A stretch of 23,985 nt of DNA from a virus: IMG/VR virus record IMGVR_UViG_3300034374_001694, positions 1-23,985 of that record, one strand, 5' to 3'. Shown here in pieces: positions 5,627 through 12,081 of the stretch. Each line of letters starts with the position of its first letter. The stretch's first letter is position 1. A program made the translations under genes and the position numbers. A model generated the notes under the pieces. That model was given only the letters and a program-made list of their open reading frames with translations, made no database searches and was not told the DNA's origin.

Positions 5627-6433
5627 TTAACTAAACGCTCTATATACTCCAGCTAGTGTAGCACCCGCACCTAAAGCAGTTTGTAAAGCTGTTGGAGATG
5701 GTTGCATTTGAGTTTGAGTTGAACCAGGGTAACCTGCAATTAATCCAGTGATCCCTGAACCCAGAGCCTGTGTAGCTTGAAGTGGTTGATTTAATTGTTG
5801 TTGTAATAATTGTTGTTGTGCAGATAATTGTGCTTGTAGTTGAGCTTGGTTAATACCACCTAGTGTAGATAAAGCTCCAACATCTTGACCTAAGAAAGCT
5901 TGACCAGCTTGACCTAGTTGTAATTGATTTCCAATATTTTTTTGAGCTAATTGTTGTGCTTGTTGAAATCCTTGTTGCTGTAACTGCGCTTGTAAAGCTG
6001 CTCTGTTTCTATCAGATGATGATTGATATTCTGCTCTTTGCACGCCTTCTCTACCACCACCAAAGGCACCGGCTGCAATTGCTGCTGCTGGTACACCTTG
6101 TGCACCTTTTTGAGCTTGAACATCAAATCCTTGTAAAGTTGTATCAATGACATCTTGTTGATACGGAGACATAAATTGTTTGTAAGCATTCGGCCCTGCT
6201 GAAGCTGCTGCTGCTTGTAAGAAAGGTTTATAACCACCTATACCCGCAAGTGCTGTTGATTGAGCTTGTTGTTGTAATGGACTAAGTCCTGCTACAAATT
6301 GTGGACCAAATATTTTTGAAAGATCTGCTTGAGATAAAGCACCTGTTACTTGTTGTAATTGAGTAATATATGGTTTCGCTGCCGCTTCTATAAACTCAGG
6401 TGGTTGTTGAACTACTGTTGATACTTCAGCCAT
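5627..6433 (-). CDS. Gln/Ala-rich internal virion protein (putative)
   Basis: A 268-residue protein of low complexity. Residues ~140-225 are extremely rich in Gln, Ala and Leu (blocks such as QAQLQQQGFQQAQQLAQ) and would form long helices. A Gly/Ala segment (AAAIAAGAFGGGREG) lies near residues 117-131, and the C-terminal ~40 residues are hydrophobic and Gly-rich. It resembles the small Ala/Gln-rich internal core proteins of podoviruses (T7 gp14-like in composition and place), which line the ejection channel; that functional statement is inference. Its ATG overlaps the stop of the upstream gene in a TAATG junction at 6433. Shorter frames inside it on both strands are compositional shadows of the CAA/TTG repeats. 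Confidence 0.75.
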   Translation of the reverse strand: MAEVSTVVQQPPEFIEAAAKPYITQLQQVTGALSQADLSKIFGPQFVAGLSPLQQQAQSTALAGIGGYKPFLQAAAASAGPNAYKQFMSPYQQDVIDTTLQGFDVQAQKGAQGVPAAAIAAGAFGGGREGVQRAEYQSSSDRNRAALQAQLQQQGFQQAQQLAQKNIGNQLQLGQAGQAFLGQDVGALSTLGGINQAQLQAQLSAQQQLLQQQLNQPLQATQALGSGITGLIAGYPGSTQTQMQPSPTALQTALGAGATLAGVYRAFS

Positions 6434-7497
6434 TATGCCCTACCATTCTTTTCTAATTGTTTCATCATACTGTACATACGTTGTGCACCTTTATTAACAT
6501 TACCATCTCCAAATTCTTTTACAGCATCTGCTGTCATTACAAATTCATTGTTTGCTAACATCGCTGGAATGTCATCTGCCTTTTCTTTTACACCAACTGG
6601 AGGAATAAATCCACCTGTTTCTCTAAGATCTAATTCTGTAACCCCTGCAGGATTTTGATTTAAAGGCAAACCTTCTATTAGAGAAGCTGCCATAGCATTT
6701 TGTTCTGGATTATTAGATCCTTTTGCAAATCCGATTCTACCACCATAAGCTGCTTCTTGTCTATCATCTATACCATTAAAATTTTCATCTATAAAATAAT
6801 TACTATTATTAGAATTACTTGTTTTTAATTTTTCTAAAATATTAGGATTATTATTAAGTAATTTAGCAATCATTCCTCCCATACTACTATTTTTTGTAAC
6901 AGGACTATCTCCTGCTTTCATTGAAGCTGAAACTAAACTACCCAAACCGTATTGCATACGGCCACCATAAGCAACGTTTGTTCTATTCATATCTTGATTA
7001 TACTCTGATAAATCTATTTCTACTTGATCAGCTATAGCTGCATCTTCATTTTCTGACTTAGCAAATGTTCTTTGATTTTTATATGCATTAGTTAGTTTAG
7101 CTCTTAATGCTCCAACATCTCTAGTAATACCTTCAGGATCACCTTCTTCTTCAGCTTCATTTAATAATCCACCTAATAAAGAACCACCTGCAAATGCTGC
7201 TAATGTACCACCTAAACTTTTTTCACCTGCTTTTTTTGCTCCACCTGAAAATAATGAAGTTATTCCAGGTATAGTACCTACTCTACCTGTTAAATTTCCC
7301 ATTCCAATAAAAGGAGCGCCACCTCCAAACATAGGTAACATAGGTGCAAAATTTAATGCAGCTAAAGATAGTAAAGGATTTTCTTTTACAGTATTAGCTA
7401 TACCTTTAATACCAGTCTTAACACCTTTTTTTATAGATTTAACTAGGCTTCCTAAGCCGTATAATTGTCTTGGTTGTAATCCTCGTGATATTGCCAT
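6433..7497 (-). CDS. Gly-rich internal/tape-measure-like virion protein
   Basis: A 354-residue protein. YGLGSLV occurs twice (near residues 14 and 183), and AYGGR occurs twice (AYGGRMQYG near 176, AYGGRIGFAKG near 250). The C-terminal segment from about residue 300 reads DDIPAMLANNEFVMTADAV and ends in a basic helix. The D-D-x-P-A-M-L-x-x-x-E-F-V-M signature is one I know from the C-terminal regions of many phage tail-length and internal virion proteins. Glycine-rich hydrophobic stretches at residues ~50-115 could insert in membranes during ejection. A 67-nt A+T-rich gap separates it from the glycosyltransferase gene upstream, and no strong ribosome site is seen. Role in DNA delivery is inferred. 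Confidence 0.75.
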   Translation of the reverse strand: MAISRGLQPRQLYGLGSLVKSIKKGVKTGIKGIANTVKENPLLSLAALNFAPMLPMFGGGAPFIGMGNLTGRVGTIPGITSLFSGGAKKAGEKSLGGTLAAFAGGSLLGGLLNEAEEEGDPEGITRDVGALRAKLTNAYKNQRTFAKSENEDAAIADQVEIDLSEYNQDMNRTNVAYGGRMQYGLGSLVSASMKAGDSPVTKNSSMGGMIAKLLNNNPNILEKLKTSNSNNSNYFIDENFNGIDDRQEAAYGGRIGFAKGSNNPEQNAMAASLIEGLPLNQNPAGVTELDLRETGGFIPPVGVKEKADDIPAMLANNEFVMTADAVKEFGDGNVNKGAQRMYSMMKQLEKNGRA

Positions 7498-7564: not shown

Positions 7565-8473
7565 TTAACTATCGTCAACAGGTTTTGCGTTCTCTAATAA
7601 ATCATAAAATCTACCACAATATTGATGGTCACCAACATGAGTTATATTATCTAAAGCATAGATATATATTTCTCCTCCCATATCACCCCATCTTTGACAA
7701 AAACCAAAATCTTCACCAAAATATCGTTTAGTCTCTATATCATGTAATGTATCAAATAAGTTAAACATATTTTCTTTTTTAACTTCTTCACCATTTATAA
7801 CAGTTGGTTGATATATCTCTAATTCTGGATGATTCTTAATCATCTTTTCAATAACTTTTCTTTTAATTAACATACATCCTGTGGGAGCATGAGTTACTTT
7901 AATAACACCATGTTCCATTTTTAATTCATTATCTCCTATTTTTAATGGAAACACATGAGCTGATTTTAATACATCATCTTTTGTTTTAATCATATTTGTC
8001 TCTTTCATTGTTCTCCACATCTTATCTGTATCAAATGTTTTCATTGGATATGGACAAGAAATAATATCTTTGTCAGCTCCAATCATTTTAAATATAGTGT
8101 TTGATTGAAAATCAATATCAGAATCAATAAACAATAAATAATCATAATGATCTTTGTGATTTAAAAATTCAGCTACACATAAATTCCTACCTTGTGTAAC
8201 TAAAGAAGATTTTAATAAAGTAAAACTAACTAATATACCTTGTTGCATACATTCTTGTTGAAATTTTAAAACAGCTTGAGTGTAATGCATAGATACTTCA
8301 CTATGACAAGGAGTACAAACCATTATCTTTGCTTTTGGATTATCTAACATAGCACCTATATTAATAGTTTTAACACTAGAGTTTACCTGTTCTATTTTTT
8401 CAGTTTGATAAGTATCTGAATTAATGTTTGTTTCTTTTTTTTCAGAAAACCATATTGGTTCATTATTTTGCAT
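7565..8473 (-). CDS. GT-A fold glycosyltransferase with DXD motif
   Basis: A 302-residue protein with the marks of a GT-A nucleotide-sugar transferase. A beta strand IMVCTPCHSEV starts the fold at residues 50-60. LVTQGRNLCVAEFL follows at 91-104. The metal-binding DXD motif sits in YDYLLFIDSDIDF (DSD at 117-119). APTGCMLIKR comes at 196-205, GEDFGFCQRW at 253-262, and a late His in THVGDH (278-283) is a candidate metal ligand. The first ~45 residues are an extra polar leader. Similar proteins occur in marine myoviruses and podoviruses, usually without known acceptors. It overlaps the upstream glycosyltransferase gene by 11 nt and has a good site (GAGAGGAGC) 7 nt before ATG 8473. The acceptor could be a virion protein or host surface glycan; the sequence does not decide. 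Confidence 0.85.
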   Translation of the reverse strand: MQNNEPIWFSEKKETNINSDTYQTEKIEQVNSSVKTINIGAMLDNPKAKIMVCTPCHSEVSMHYTQAVLKFQQECMQQGILVSFTLLKSSLVTQGRNLCVAEFLNHKDHYDYLLFIDSDIDFQSNTIFKMIGADKDIISCPYPMKTFDTDKMWRTMKETNMIKTKDDVLKSAHVFPLKIGDNELKMEHGVIKVTHAPTGCMLIKRKVIEKMIKNHPELEIYQPTVINGEEVKKENMFNLFDTLHDIETKRYFGEDFGFCQRWGDMGGEIYIYALDNITHVGDHQYCGRFYDLLENAKPVDDS

Positions 8474-9401
8474 TTATTGCTCCTCTCAAAAATCTTGTCC
8501 AAGATTGGCCTTTATCTTCCCAATTATAAAATTTATTTACGTAATTTTGTTGCATCTTTAAATGTTCCTGGATATCTGAATTATGAAGCATGTCTGCAGA
8601 AGCTTCTATAGCTTGAGCAAATTTCCTAGCTAAACTTTTATAATTATTTGAGTAAGGTATATAAATTGGAAAATCTGCACCTGTTTCATATATAGCACCA
8701 AAGTTAGTAGTAATACAATATAAACCCGCTGACATAGATTCTAATAATGATATACAAGATGTCTCTTCCCAAATACTAGGGTATACAAACATTCTATAAT
8801 TTTTTAAATTTTCTTTAATATATTCATTTGGCTTGTAACCAATATAATTTACATTAGGTAGTTGTCTTGCTTGTTCATATAAAGCTTTATATGATTCATC
8901 ATTAGCTTCTGCAAAATCTTTTCCATATACTTCACAAGAAGAATAAACATCTAAACTAATTAATGGATTCTTAACTAATTGCATAGCACCTAATAATACA
9001 CTTAATCCTCTCCAAGGTGTACAGTGATGTACTATTTTTATAGAATCACCTTTTTTATATTGAGTTAAAACAGGTTGTACTTCTTCAATACCATTTTTAA
9101 TAACTATACATTTCTCTCTAGGTAAATCAAATTTTTTTGTAAATTGTTCAAAGTTCCAATTAGAGTTAAATACATACCAATCGTATTTATGGTGGTTTGA
9201 TTTATTATCAAACCATGGTTTTAAATTAGGTTGGTCCCATGAATTTTTTTGCCAAAGAATATTTAACTTAGTTGAATGTAATGGTGTTTTTTCTGGTACA
9301 GATGTACAAATTTCCACTTGATTAAGTAAGCTAGGTTCTACATGCTTTCTTAAATATTCTAATTGTAACTCTGTTCCGCCTCTAGGATTTTGGTTTTTCA
9401 T
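8463..9401 (-). CDS. GT-B (GT4-type) glycosyltransferase
   Basis: A 312-residue protein with the GT4 pattern. The N-terminal glycine motif is PRGGTEL at residues 6-12. An acceptor-side strand YDWYVFNSNWNFEQF follows at 73-87, then VIKNGIE at 100-106. The donor-domain strand IKIVHHCTPWRGL is at 121-133, the linker NVNYIGYKPNEYIKENL at 183-199, and the E-x7-E motif (E213, E221) sits in WEETSCISLLESMSAG. The usual first beta strand before GG is missing, because the protein starts only five residues ahead of the PR-GG segment. An in-frame TGA at 9411-9413 rules out a longer start. It overlaps the 77-residue gene upstream by 20 nt and the GT-A gene downstream by 11 nt. The pair probably acts on the same glycan; donor and acceptor sugars are unknown. 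Confidence 0.85.
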   Translation of the reverse strand: MKNQNPRGGTELQLEYLRKHVEPSLLNQVEICTSVPEKTPLHSTKLNILWQKNSWDQPNLKPWFDNKSNHHKYDWYVFNSNWNFEQFTKKFDLPREKCIVIKNGIEEVQPVLTQYKKGDSIKIVHHCTPWRGLSVLLGAMQLVKNPLISLDVYSSCEVYGKDFAEANDESYKALYEQARQLPNVNYIGYKPNEYIKENLKNYRMFVYPSIWEETSCISLLESMSAGLYCITTNFGAIYETGADFPIYIPYSNNYKSLARKFAQAIEASADMLHNSDIQEHLKMQQNYVNKFYNWEDKGQSWTRFLRGAINAK

Positions 9402-9615
9402 TGTTTTGATTCATTACTTTCTGTAAAATATTTAATCCTTTCGGAGATACTACTACTGTAAGATCTTGTGCAATATGTTCTGCAACTGTTTCAGTATTAG
9501 GATCTGCTATATCAGCTTCTTTCTCTGTTTCATCTTTATATACTTTATTAGTTCTAGTATTTCTTAAAACTATTGTTGTTGTACAATCAATTTTTAATAC
9601 ATCTTCGTTAGCCAT
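9382..9615 (-). CDS. Small protein of unknown function (77 aa)
   Basis: A soluble, acidic 77-residue protein, MANEDVLKIDCTTTIVLRN at the start, with a strand-rich first half (VLKIDCTTTIVLR) and a helical second half around TVAEHIAQDLTVVVSPKGLNI. I do not recognise a family. It begins in a TAATG junction with the 113-residue gene and has AGGAG about 10 nt upstream. Its end overlaps the start of the GT-B gene by 20 nt, so the two are probably translated together. Being between small virion-like proteins and the glycosyltransferases, it could belong to either group. Confidence 0.7.
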   Translation of the reverse strand: MANEDVLKIDCTTTIVLRNTRTNKVYKDETEKEADIADPNTETVAEHIAQDLTVVVSPKGLNILQKVMNQNNEKPKS

Positions 9616-9956
9616 TATCCATTCTCCTGTGATCTATCTACTAAAGCGTAACCAACTACTACTTCAAGTTTATTAGCGGTTTCTGCTTGAACTTTTATAG
9701 CATCTCCTGCTTCTAAATTCAACCCCTGTTCAACAGCATTTACTGTGCTTGTAGCAGGTATATCTTTTCTAAAAAATTCTATGTCTGTACTAGCAGAAGA
9801 ATCTCTTAAATCACAGTTAGCTAATACAGCTCCTGTGCTATTATTAGATATATACACAGATTTTACAATAGCGATAGATGAGGTACTTATAGTTAAAACA
9901 GTAGTCATAGCTGTACCACTTAATATCTTACTAGCGTTTTTATATTGTATAGTCAT
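9615..9956 (-). CDS. Small beta-rich virion protein (putative)
   Basis: A 113-residue protein made almost wholly of short polar beta strands (TTVLTISTSSIAIVKSVYIS, then KLEVVVGYALV near residues 97-107), with no signal peptide or membrane segment. The layout of alternating strands, an Asn/Ser loop after the second strand (SNNSTGAVLANCDL) and a final Val-rich strand recalls the 91- and 97-residue proteins farther upstream in this window. Such small beta-sandwich proteins often decorate virions or cap tail parts. It is joined by TAATG to both neighbours (9956 and 9615). No strong ribosome site is visible, consistent with translation by reinitiation. Confidence 0.7.
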   Translation of the reverse strand: MTIQYKNASKILSGTAMTTVLTISTSSIAIVKSVYISNNSTGAVLANCDLRDSSASTDIEFFRKDIPATSTVNAVEQGLNLEAGDAIKVQAETANKLEVVVGYALVDRSQENG

Positions 9957-10120
9957 TAGGATAAAAAGTAATTATATGTATCTTGCTCTTCTTTCAAGTC
10001 ATTTTGAAAAGCAAAATTAAGTTGGTTTTGTAATGTAGTTAAAGACTCTAATATCTGTCTTTGATTTTCTACATCATATTCTGGTTGCGGTTCAGGTATG
10101 TATGCAGTTATTTTAGCCAT
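9956..10120 (-). CDS. Small helical protein (54 aa), unknown function
   Basis: The chosen start is ATG 10120, giving 54 residues: MAKITAYIPEPQPEYDVEN, then a helix rich in L, N and Q (RQILESLTTLQNQLNFAFQN) and a short acidic tail. A longer in-frame reading begins at 10171 inside the 653-residue gene. The 10120 start is preferred because it forms a TAATG fusion with that gene's stop and has GGAAGAAG just upstream. I recognise no family. Comparable tiny genes follow nozzle genes in other marine podoviruses, but that alone gives no function. Confidence 0.7.
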   Translation of the reverse strand: MAKITAYIPEPQPEYDVENQRQILESLTTLQNQLNFAFQNDLKEEQDTYNYFLS

Positions 10121-12081
10121 TATCTTCTTCCATCTGGTTGTGCATCTAATCTTAAAGTTCCATATCTCCAAGTCTCACCAGTACCATCATTTTCTATTTT
10201 AATTGATACTAATCTTCCTCTTGCTCTTGTATCTACTTTACTAGTAGAACTTGTAATTGTAAATGGGCCAAGAGGTGAACTAGATGCAGTATTATTTGGA
10301 TAATTATTTAATAGTAAAGTAATTTTTGAATTACCTGTTAATACTTTAAAATCAGGTATAAATCTTTTTACAGACATAAAGACTTCTCCATCTCCTTTAT
10401 AATCAATCGTGCCGGTTCCTCCTCCAAAGGGACTTTGTCTTGCAGTAATATCAAAGTCTCCTGATTGAATAAATGCATCAATAGAGGTTGTACCTGAACT
10501 GTTAATTTGATCAGTTCCTTTTTCATGTTCGTAATAAATAGATGCTCCAAATTTATTTGTAATTCCTTGTATCGGAAAATTAGGTGTAGCACCTTTGTCA
10601 TAATCAGTTGCGTAAGGTAAATCATAGATTCCTTGATCAATATAGCTTGATCTATCAAGTGAACTTGTAGTCCAGATATTTTCTCCATAATTATATACTA
10701 CACATCTATTAACTTGTTCTGAACTTGCTGAAGGATAAAACCAATTTATTTCATTATATAAACTATTATGTTCACAATAAATTAATTGACTAGAACTATA
10801 ATTTACACCTAAATTATCTCCAGTAGTTGTAAATACAAAATCTTCTACTAAACATGGTAAAGCTTTTACAGTACCATCAAAAACAAAAAAACCACCTTCA
10901 CCCGACATCCAAAATACTTTACCATCAGAATAACTTATTGCGTTCTGTCCTATTAAACCACAGTTAGTACCAACTTGTCTTACAGAAAAAGTAAACGGTG
11001 GACCAACATATTGAATTACATATGCAGATGTATCTGTTAAAACTAATGTATAATCTTTACCTGATACTGCTCCCATAATTTCATTACCTTTATCTAATCT
11101 AAATGTTCCTGCAGTATTTGTTGCAGTGGGTAAGTACGTATTTAAATCTTCTTGGTTTGAAAATCTAATAAACATTGGATCTTGAGTTGTTGCATTACCA
11201 ATAGTTGTTTCAGTTCCAAAATGAAATAAATGTCTATCTCTATCAGATACTTGCGTTAATATTGTAGCAGTTGGATTACTACTTGTTGGAATACCAGAAG
11301 TAGTTGTAGATGCTCTAACAGTCCTCGGATTACCTGCACCTGCATTCCATGTAAATGTTTTACCATTACGAATAGTTGCAACCAACACTTGACCAAAATT
11401 ATCAAGAGACCATAAACCAGGATCTAAGGTTACATTACTAGTTGCACTTGCAGTTCCCCATGTACTTGATCCCCATGTAGATGTACCCCATCCTAAACCA
11501 GAAGTTTGAAACGTTGGTCCTACTATTTCATATGGATCAATTTGAGCAGACCCTGTTCCACTACTAGCACCTGCTGAGTTTGTTGGCATAGTAATTTGAA
11601 ATGTATTATTTGTTTTGTTTAATACTTCAAAAGTATTTCCAGTGAAATCTGCTATTGCATAACCTGAGCTTGTTGGAACAGTTACACTTGAAAATGTTAT
11701 ATATCTTCCATCTAATAAACCATGTGAAGTTTTATTAACCGTGACTGTTGCTGATCCAGAGGTAACTGTAAAAGTAGCTCCTGCAATAACGTCATTATCT
11801 AAAGGAGAAATATCAAAAAACTCACCTTCATAATATAAAAATAAACCTTGTGATGTTCCAATTGCTACGTATTTTTCACCTGCAATAGATGTGAAAGCAT
11901 GTTGTGCTCTTGCTGCACCTGGTAATGTATTATTTGAATTAGTGAGTTGACTCCAGCCACCTATTTTTTCAGGCAGTCCGTATCTAAATCTAACAAAATC
12001 TCCATCGACCCACTGTGATTCACCACCTGAGTCTGTGACCATTTTATTAAAACCAGGTTTGAAAAAAAGTTTTTGTAGCAT
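10120..12081 (-). CDS. Tail nozzle / P22 gp10-like DNA-stabilisation protein
   Basis: A 653-residue beta-rich protein. Its N-terminus holds SQWVDGDFVRFRYGLPEKIGG (residues 22-42) and KYVAIGTSQGLFLYYEGEFF (70-89), the pattern of P22 gp10-like packaged-DNA stabilisation and nozzle proteins that plug the tail tip. Later blade-like strands include YTLVLTDTSAYVIQYVGPPF and KVFWMSGEGGFFVFDGTV. Residues ~105-165 form an inserted beta module (GSATVTVNKTSHGLLDGRYI onward, ending TFQITMP), followed by a W-G-T-S-T-W-G-S-S-T-W-G run at 197-209. It ends RLDAQPDGRR. Assignment to the nozzle is by these patterns and by place after the fibre block; an alternative name is tail tubular protein B. A promoter-like TTGCTA-15-TATATT lies in the 40-nt gap upstream, but its spacing is poor. 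Confidence 0.75.
   Translation of the reverse strand: MLQKLFFKPGFNKMVTDSGGESQWVDGDFVRFRYGLPEKIGGWSQLTNSNNTLPGAARAQHAFTSIAGEKYVAIGTSQGLFLYYEGEFFDISPLDNDVIAGATFTVTSGSATVTVNKTSHGLLDGRYITFSSVTVPTSSGYAIADFTGNTFEVLNKTNNTFQITMPTNSAGASSGTGSAQIDPYEIVGPTFQTSGLGWGTSTWGSSTWGTASATSNVTLDPGLWSLDNFGQVLVATIRNGKTFTWNAGAGNPRTVRASTTTSGIPTSSNPTATILTQVSDRDRHLFHFGTETTIGNATTQDPMFIRFSNQEDLNTYLPTATNTAGTFRLDKGNEIMGAVSGKDYTLVLTDTSAYVIQYVGPPFTFSVRQVGTNCGLIGQNAISYSDGKVFWMSGEGGFFVFDGTVKALPCLVEDFVFTTTGDNLGVNYSSSQLIYCEHNSLYNEINWFYPSASSEQVNRCVVYNYGENIWTTSSLDRSSYIDQGIYDLPYATDYDKGATPNFPIQGITNKFGASIYYEHEKGTDQINSSGTTSIDAFIQSGDFDITARQSPFGGGTGTIDYKGDGEVFMSVKRFIPDFKVLTGNSKITLLLNNYPNNTASSSPLGPFTITSSTSKVDTRARGRLVSIKIENDGTGETWRYGTLRLDAQPDGRR

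Follow-up and report, generated by a model that had tools for sequence, protein, structure and literature searches.

Why would a phage keep two overlapping glycosyltransferase (GT) genes in the midst of its virion genes, and what do the encoded enzymes modify? The question is raised by a 24-kb IMG/VR fragment (IMGVR_UViG_3300034374_001694, 23,985 nucleotides, hereafter the window), whose closest cultured relatives, judged by the GT genes, are the pelagiphages HTVC027P and HTVC023P. The window virus is most probably an HTVC023P-type pelagiphage. All of the features described here lie on the minus strand of the window. A GT-B gene (8463..9401, 312 aa) precedes a GT-A gene (7565..8473, 302 aa), and the GT-B stop and the GT-A start overlap by 11 nucleotides (8463..8473), an arrangement of translational coupling. 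Upstream of the pair are three small genes, encoding a 77-aa protein (9382..9615) that overlaps the GT-B start by 20 nucleotides, a Ser/Thr-rich (21%) 113-aa protein (9615..9956) and a 71-aa protein (9956..10171) of the same block, followed by the gene of a 653-aa virion structural protein (10120..12081, phrog_3287). This last protein had been called a tail nozzle in an earlier interpretation made without database searches (hereafter the sequence-only reading). Downstream are four internal/ejection-type genes, including those of a 354-aa protein next to the pair (6433..7497), assigned to this type by position, and a 268-aa protein (5627..6433) with a weak match to the DNA ejection protein phrog_4287 (E = 0.0026). 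The coordinates, strand and overlap given in the sequence-only reading are exact, and the location between the tail nozzle block and the internal/ejection proteins is as it had described. Predicted promoters and terminators around the pair are not above shuffled expectation, and PADLOC models of anti-phage defense genes give no matches.

The compact GT-B enzyme matches Pfam Glycos_transf_1 (E = 1.3×10−16, 61 bits against a curated cut-off of 26.4) and the glycosyltransferase family phrog_2170. Its AF2 model (pLDDT 85) retrieves with Foldseek the GT4-type GT-B structures BshA, SenB, TarM and SdgB (E about 10−10, TM about 0.6) and shows the two-Rossmann GT-B fold, in which the first strand of the N-domain seems absent from the model, as it does in homologs of similar length. 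The GT-A enzyme matches phrog_1574, a family of unknown function (E = 2×10−40), and no Pfam family above cut-off (Anp1, E = 0.007). In sequence searches of the two profiles against PDB chains, neither enzyme has relatives. The best structural matches of the GT-A model are GT-A enzymes (Mnn9, STIV A197, LH3 and GalNAc-T2) with E about 10−7, but TM is only about 0.4 on a model of moderate quality (pLDDT 71), so that structure prediction bears out the proposed GT-B assignment, and for the other enzyme the GT-A fold is putative. The motifs from which both assignments had been made, E213-x7-E221 in the C-terminal domain of GT-B and DSD at 117-119 of GT-A, are present and invariant in 30 homologs, as is a GT2-like ED at 254-255 of GT-A. 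The GT-A counterparts in HTVC027P (gp81) and HTVC023P (gp78) are annotated as hypothetical. In close relatives, the GT-A N-terminus MQNNxPIWF is near-invariant and is followed by a variable linker and then the catalytic domain; this N-terminus could be a docking peptide. More distant GT-A homologs (30-35% identity; L392-L406) are found in chromosomes of Beijerinckiaceae and relatives, and that of Methylocapsa acidiphila adjoins electron-transfer flavoprotein genes. As a functional clue the bacterial homolog is uninformative, being an orphan amid electron-transfer and housekeeping genes.

Both GT genes are under strong purifying selection, with dN/dS of about 0.08-0.21 between the window and its relatives. 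Across HTVC027P, HTVC023P and two contigs (G001, nearly identical to the window, and G006), both GTs belong to the core genes, and their conservation is similar to that of the 653-aa virion protein, with identities of 56-71% for GT-B, 55-65% for GT-A and 54-70% for the virion protein. The retrieved contigs hold 185 distinct pair sequences, which argues that the pair is not a chance arrangement. In a search based on the GTs, GT-B is followed by an overlapping GT-A in all contigs with enough DNA; the overlap is mostly 11 or 14 nucleotides, and at least some of the longer overlaps reflect an alternative upstream start codon chosen by the ORF caller. The block of 653-aa, 71-aa, 113-aa and 77-aa genes lies upstream of the pair in all loci (179/179), and in 98/102 the next gene downstream is of the ejection type; some of these loci represent the same contig cut differently. 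L058, the exception that we inspected, has one additional 329-aa gene between the pair and the ejection-type gene.

A second survey was seeded with the 653-aa virion protein rather than the GTs, against ascertainment bias, and counted contigs with more than 3.3 kb downstream. Among window-like contigs the pair is in place in 25 of 27, and among HTVC023P-like contigs it is present in 41 of 43, in place in 36 and displaced by inserted genes in 5. In two further contigs GT-B is present and the contig ends. In one window-like contig (L425, 6766-9262) the pair and the small genes give way to genes for a 690-aa protein, whose C-terminal stretch is Hint/intein-like, and for an acetyltransferase-like 144-aa protein. 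Both surveys link the GT genes to virion genes, the arrangement sought in a virion-glycosylation system. In HTVC023P-type phages the two genes practically never part and keep to this slot, which is the point that the sequence-only reading had proposed to check.

Conservation of this kind bears on the idea that the pair is a passenger, gained once by an ancestor and kept by linkage, with a metabolic role (a small-molecule glycoside) unrelated to the virion. The GT4 structural neighbors of GT-B do include the small-molecule enzymes BshA and SenB, and the orphan status of the GT-A homolog in Beijerinckiaceae is in keeping with such a role. We nevertheless regard it as very unlikely, given purifying selection, near-universal retention of the pair across deep divergence, and the further enzymes recruited to the slot, all of which make or cap hydroxyl groups.

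These further enzymes occur in an HTVC023P-like subclade; the window itself lacks the oxygenases and the carbamoyltransferase, which counts against a virion-glycan role. In 23 of 248 loci, 2OG-Fe(II) oxygenases (PF13759, PF13640) separate the virion protein gene from the pair, and in one case the insertion splits GT-B from GT-A. A Nol/TobZ-type carbamoyltransferase (phrog_1601; TobZ is among its PDB matches at about 10−33) lies upstream of GT-B, together with oxygenases, in three sequence types (L509-L512, L493 and L494), one of which, L493, also has a Gly_transf_sug (GT32-type) enzyme as a single case. Another contig, L504, carries oxygenases and the carbamoyltransferase, has no GT pair in its 4.3 kb, and ends there. 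Since the slot also holds oxygenases, a carbamoyltransferase and a GT32-type enzyme, the pair can be seen as the constant part of a glycan-modification cassette that is able to grow. The recruited enzymes, which produce or cap hydroxyl groups or attach sugars, fit this description. A homologous GT-A/GT-B pair is also found in the marine T4-like virus AG-345-L05, amid tail-fiber-like genes, sulfotransferases and 2OG oxygenases; its GT-B (L134:7926-9821) is fused to a C-terminal domain of about 310 aa resembling a hypothetical protein of Synechococcus phage S-SKS1. In marine T4-like phages, GT genes are often located in the tail-fiber region (PMC7029224), and this, together with AG-345-L05, shows that the earlier remark that modification enzymes usually lie elsewhere was too strong.

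HTVC023P-type phages therefore have two intact, conserved and translationally coupled enzymes in a near-fixed slot, with hydroxylase, carbamoyltransferase and GT32 genes co-localized in relatives. These observations suggest that pelagiphages put sugars on their own particle proteins. Glycosylation of virion proteins, as the sequence-only reading had proposed, is the best-supported explanation of two such enzymes in a fixed slot, although for virion (tail) proteins we put it at only an even chance of being correct. By this account the two enzymes would be co-translated, in step with the virion genes as far as the layout indicates, and would act sequentially on a phage virion protein in the SAR11 cytoplasm. 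A nucleotide-sugar donor would supply the initial sugar, which one enzyme would attach and the other extend, the sugar and the order of steps being conjectural. The most likely acceptor would be a component of the tail or tail tip whose gene lies in this block, such as the small Ser/Thr-rich protein at 9615-9956 or the Ser/Thr-rich fiber and nozzle proteins. The 113-aa protein is a candidate by adjacency only; examined for an acceptor signature, it has conserved Ser/Thr at few positions. In some relatives, the 2OG-Fe(II) oxygenases of the slot would first create hydroxyl groups and the Nol/TobZ-type carbamoyltransferase would cap the sugar. Late expression is presumed from the layout, and the claim of co-expression with late structural genes went too far, because the expression classes of HTVC027P are reported as mosaic-like along the genome (PMC12753301) and operon position is no proof of late expression.

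The target of the enzymes could instead be a surface glycan or a lipid precursor of SAR11, glycosylated late in infection so that progeny re-adsorption or superinfection is blocked. Such a role has already been proposed for the GTs of pelagimyophages, which in many cases are encoded in the host-recognition region (PMC7029224). GT-B enzymes of the GT4 type commonly work on the envelope, LPS/EPS enzymes are among the weak NCBIfam matches, and Nol-type carbamoyltransferases classically act on sugars. Envelope-modifying genes, however, tend to be accessory and variable and often come with membrane partners, whereas the pelagiphage pair consists of two soluble-looking core enzymes in one fixed slot where no membrane or flippase partner is seen; we consider this alternative unlikely.

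The main rival, which the sequence-only reading had not raised, is that the pair glycosylates the phage DNA, placing a sugar or two on a hydroxylated base as a nuclease shield, as in T4 or hypermodified rhizophages. It draws on T4-like phages, in which both GT families occur at separate loci of the same genome (phiN3, phiM12, phiM7, phiM19, Cr30, DLP6, OC and RHph_I1_18) and together in 4/4 contigs over 100 kb. The GT-A homolog directly adjoins the sliding-clamp gene in 78 of 80 T4-like contigs (L301-L380, L136, L138, L140, L141, L143), which suggests a DNA role there, and a TET/JBP oxygenase lies near GT-A in Cr30 and DLP6. The "SNF2 DNA repair protein" genes of DLP6 (L140:3407-4753) and Cr30 (L138:13997-15325) instead match Pfam Tet_JBP above cut-off. 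Rhizophage genomes are described as often highly modified in PMC6992544, which cites the 1984 transduction papers on N3 and M12. Because of the co-occurrence of the GTs, the sliding-clamp position, TET/JBP in Cr30 and DLP6, and modified rhizophage DNA, the T4-like clade may well act on DNA. TET is present in only 1 of 12 long T4-like contigs and 7 of 80 neighborhoods, so it was rejected as a general partner of GT-A. In the thymidylate synthases (TS) of phiN3, Cr30 and RHph_I1_18 the specificity position is still occupied by Asn (dUMP-type), which rules out a dCMP-hydroxymethylase route for these three genes.

For the pelagiphages themselves, TS and aG/PT-PPlase DNA-hypermodification genes are reported in some HTVC023P-type clades (PMC9599517), a point in favor of the DNA rival. 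Against it, no base-hydroxylating enzyme (TET/JBP or dCMP/dUMP hydroxymethylase), as would be expected beside DNA glycosylation, and no PF12851 (TET) or PF00303 (TS) was found in HTVC027P, HTVC023P or 14 IMG/VR contigs, most of them incomplete. TET, TS, hydroxymethylase and T4-type DNA glucosyltransferase are likewise not among the top 25 Pfam families listed for HTVC027P and HTVC023P proteins. In a deep GT-A tree the pelagiphage pair forms its own clade, with long branches and no resolved order for the tail-context clades, and this separate clade is fixed in the virion block. Furthermore, restriction-modification has been reported in only one of more than 100 SAR11 genomes (PMC7029224). The carbamoyltransferases in MetaGPA belong to contigs of unmodified DNA where "glycosyl transferases group 1" flank them, and to modified ones where they lie beside thymidylate synthase (PMC8670742). 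This pattern, the lack of TET, TS and hydroxymethylase in the genomes searched, and the separate clade count for protein over DNA in pelagiphages, and modification of DNA by this pair, although a serious rival, appears unlikely to us.

A diverged second phrog_1574 GT-A paralog, annotated as hypothetical, was observed in HTVC027P (gp05, L001:3493-4200) between primase and helicase; no separate gene of this type was found in G001 or G006. From its position, gp05 would be the better candidate if one GT-A of HTVC027P serves DNA. Relatives with these genes in an early or metabolic region, which the sequence-only reading had counted against a virion role, thus exist in part, as the sliding-clamp homologs of T4-like phages and as gp05, but the HTVC023P-type pairs stay in their slot.

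SAR11 are the commonest bacteria of the ocean, and pelagiphages are very abundant. If core phage enzymes glycosylate their particles, glycosylated virions would be common among marine phages and no longer a mycobacteriophage curiosity, and the modification could bear on adsorption, stability and grazing. Both HTVC023P and HTVC027P are in culture, so direct tests are feasible. Three GTs of HTVC023P-type pelagiphages have been reported as auxiliary metabolic genes that may act on DNA or protein (PMC9599517); in the text available, that report on the same phage group makes no mention of a fixed pair, its slot or the identity of the GT-A. Three points are new relative to the published text available: that the second gene encodes a GT-A, that the pair and its slot are fixed, and that hydroxylase, carbamoyltransferase and GT32 genes expand the slot.

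Among known systems, virion glycosylation occurs in mycobacteriophages such as Che8 (Freeman et al. 2023, via PMC12619734 and PMC11256854). The pelagiphages have in common with them phage-encoded GTs, which in the mycobacteriophages, according to those texts, glycosylate capsid and tail tube proteins. These are other phages with other hosts, in which glycosylation is proven, whereas in the pelagiphages it is inferred from genes. The F1 phage Maravista, related to Che8, reportedly has its GT genes near the genome 3′ end, whereas the pelagiphage pair lies between nozzle and ejection genes. With the alpha/beta DNA glucosyltransferases of T4 and the TET- or HMase-linked GTs of phage DNA, the pelagiphages share the presence of two GTs as a pair, and a further link is that the T4-like GT-A homologs are in the replication module. 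The pelagiphage pair itself is in the virion operon; unlike in the T4 and TET- or HMase-linked systems, no base-hydroxylating enzyme was found in HTVC023P or HTVC027P, and T4 DNA glucosyltransferases are not among the top structural matches of the pelagiphage GTs. Typical anti-restriction or serotype genes are variable, in contrast to this core pair of low dN/dS. The GTs of pelagimyophages and cyanophages (PMC7029224) share with the pair a host-recognition or tail region, with 2OG oxygenases nearby in AG-345-L05, but the myophage genes lie in a hypervariable region (PMC7029224), whereas the pelagiphage pair occupies a fixed core slot.
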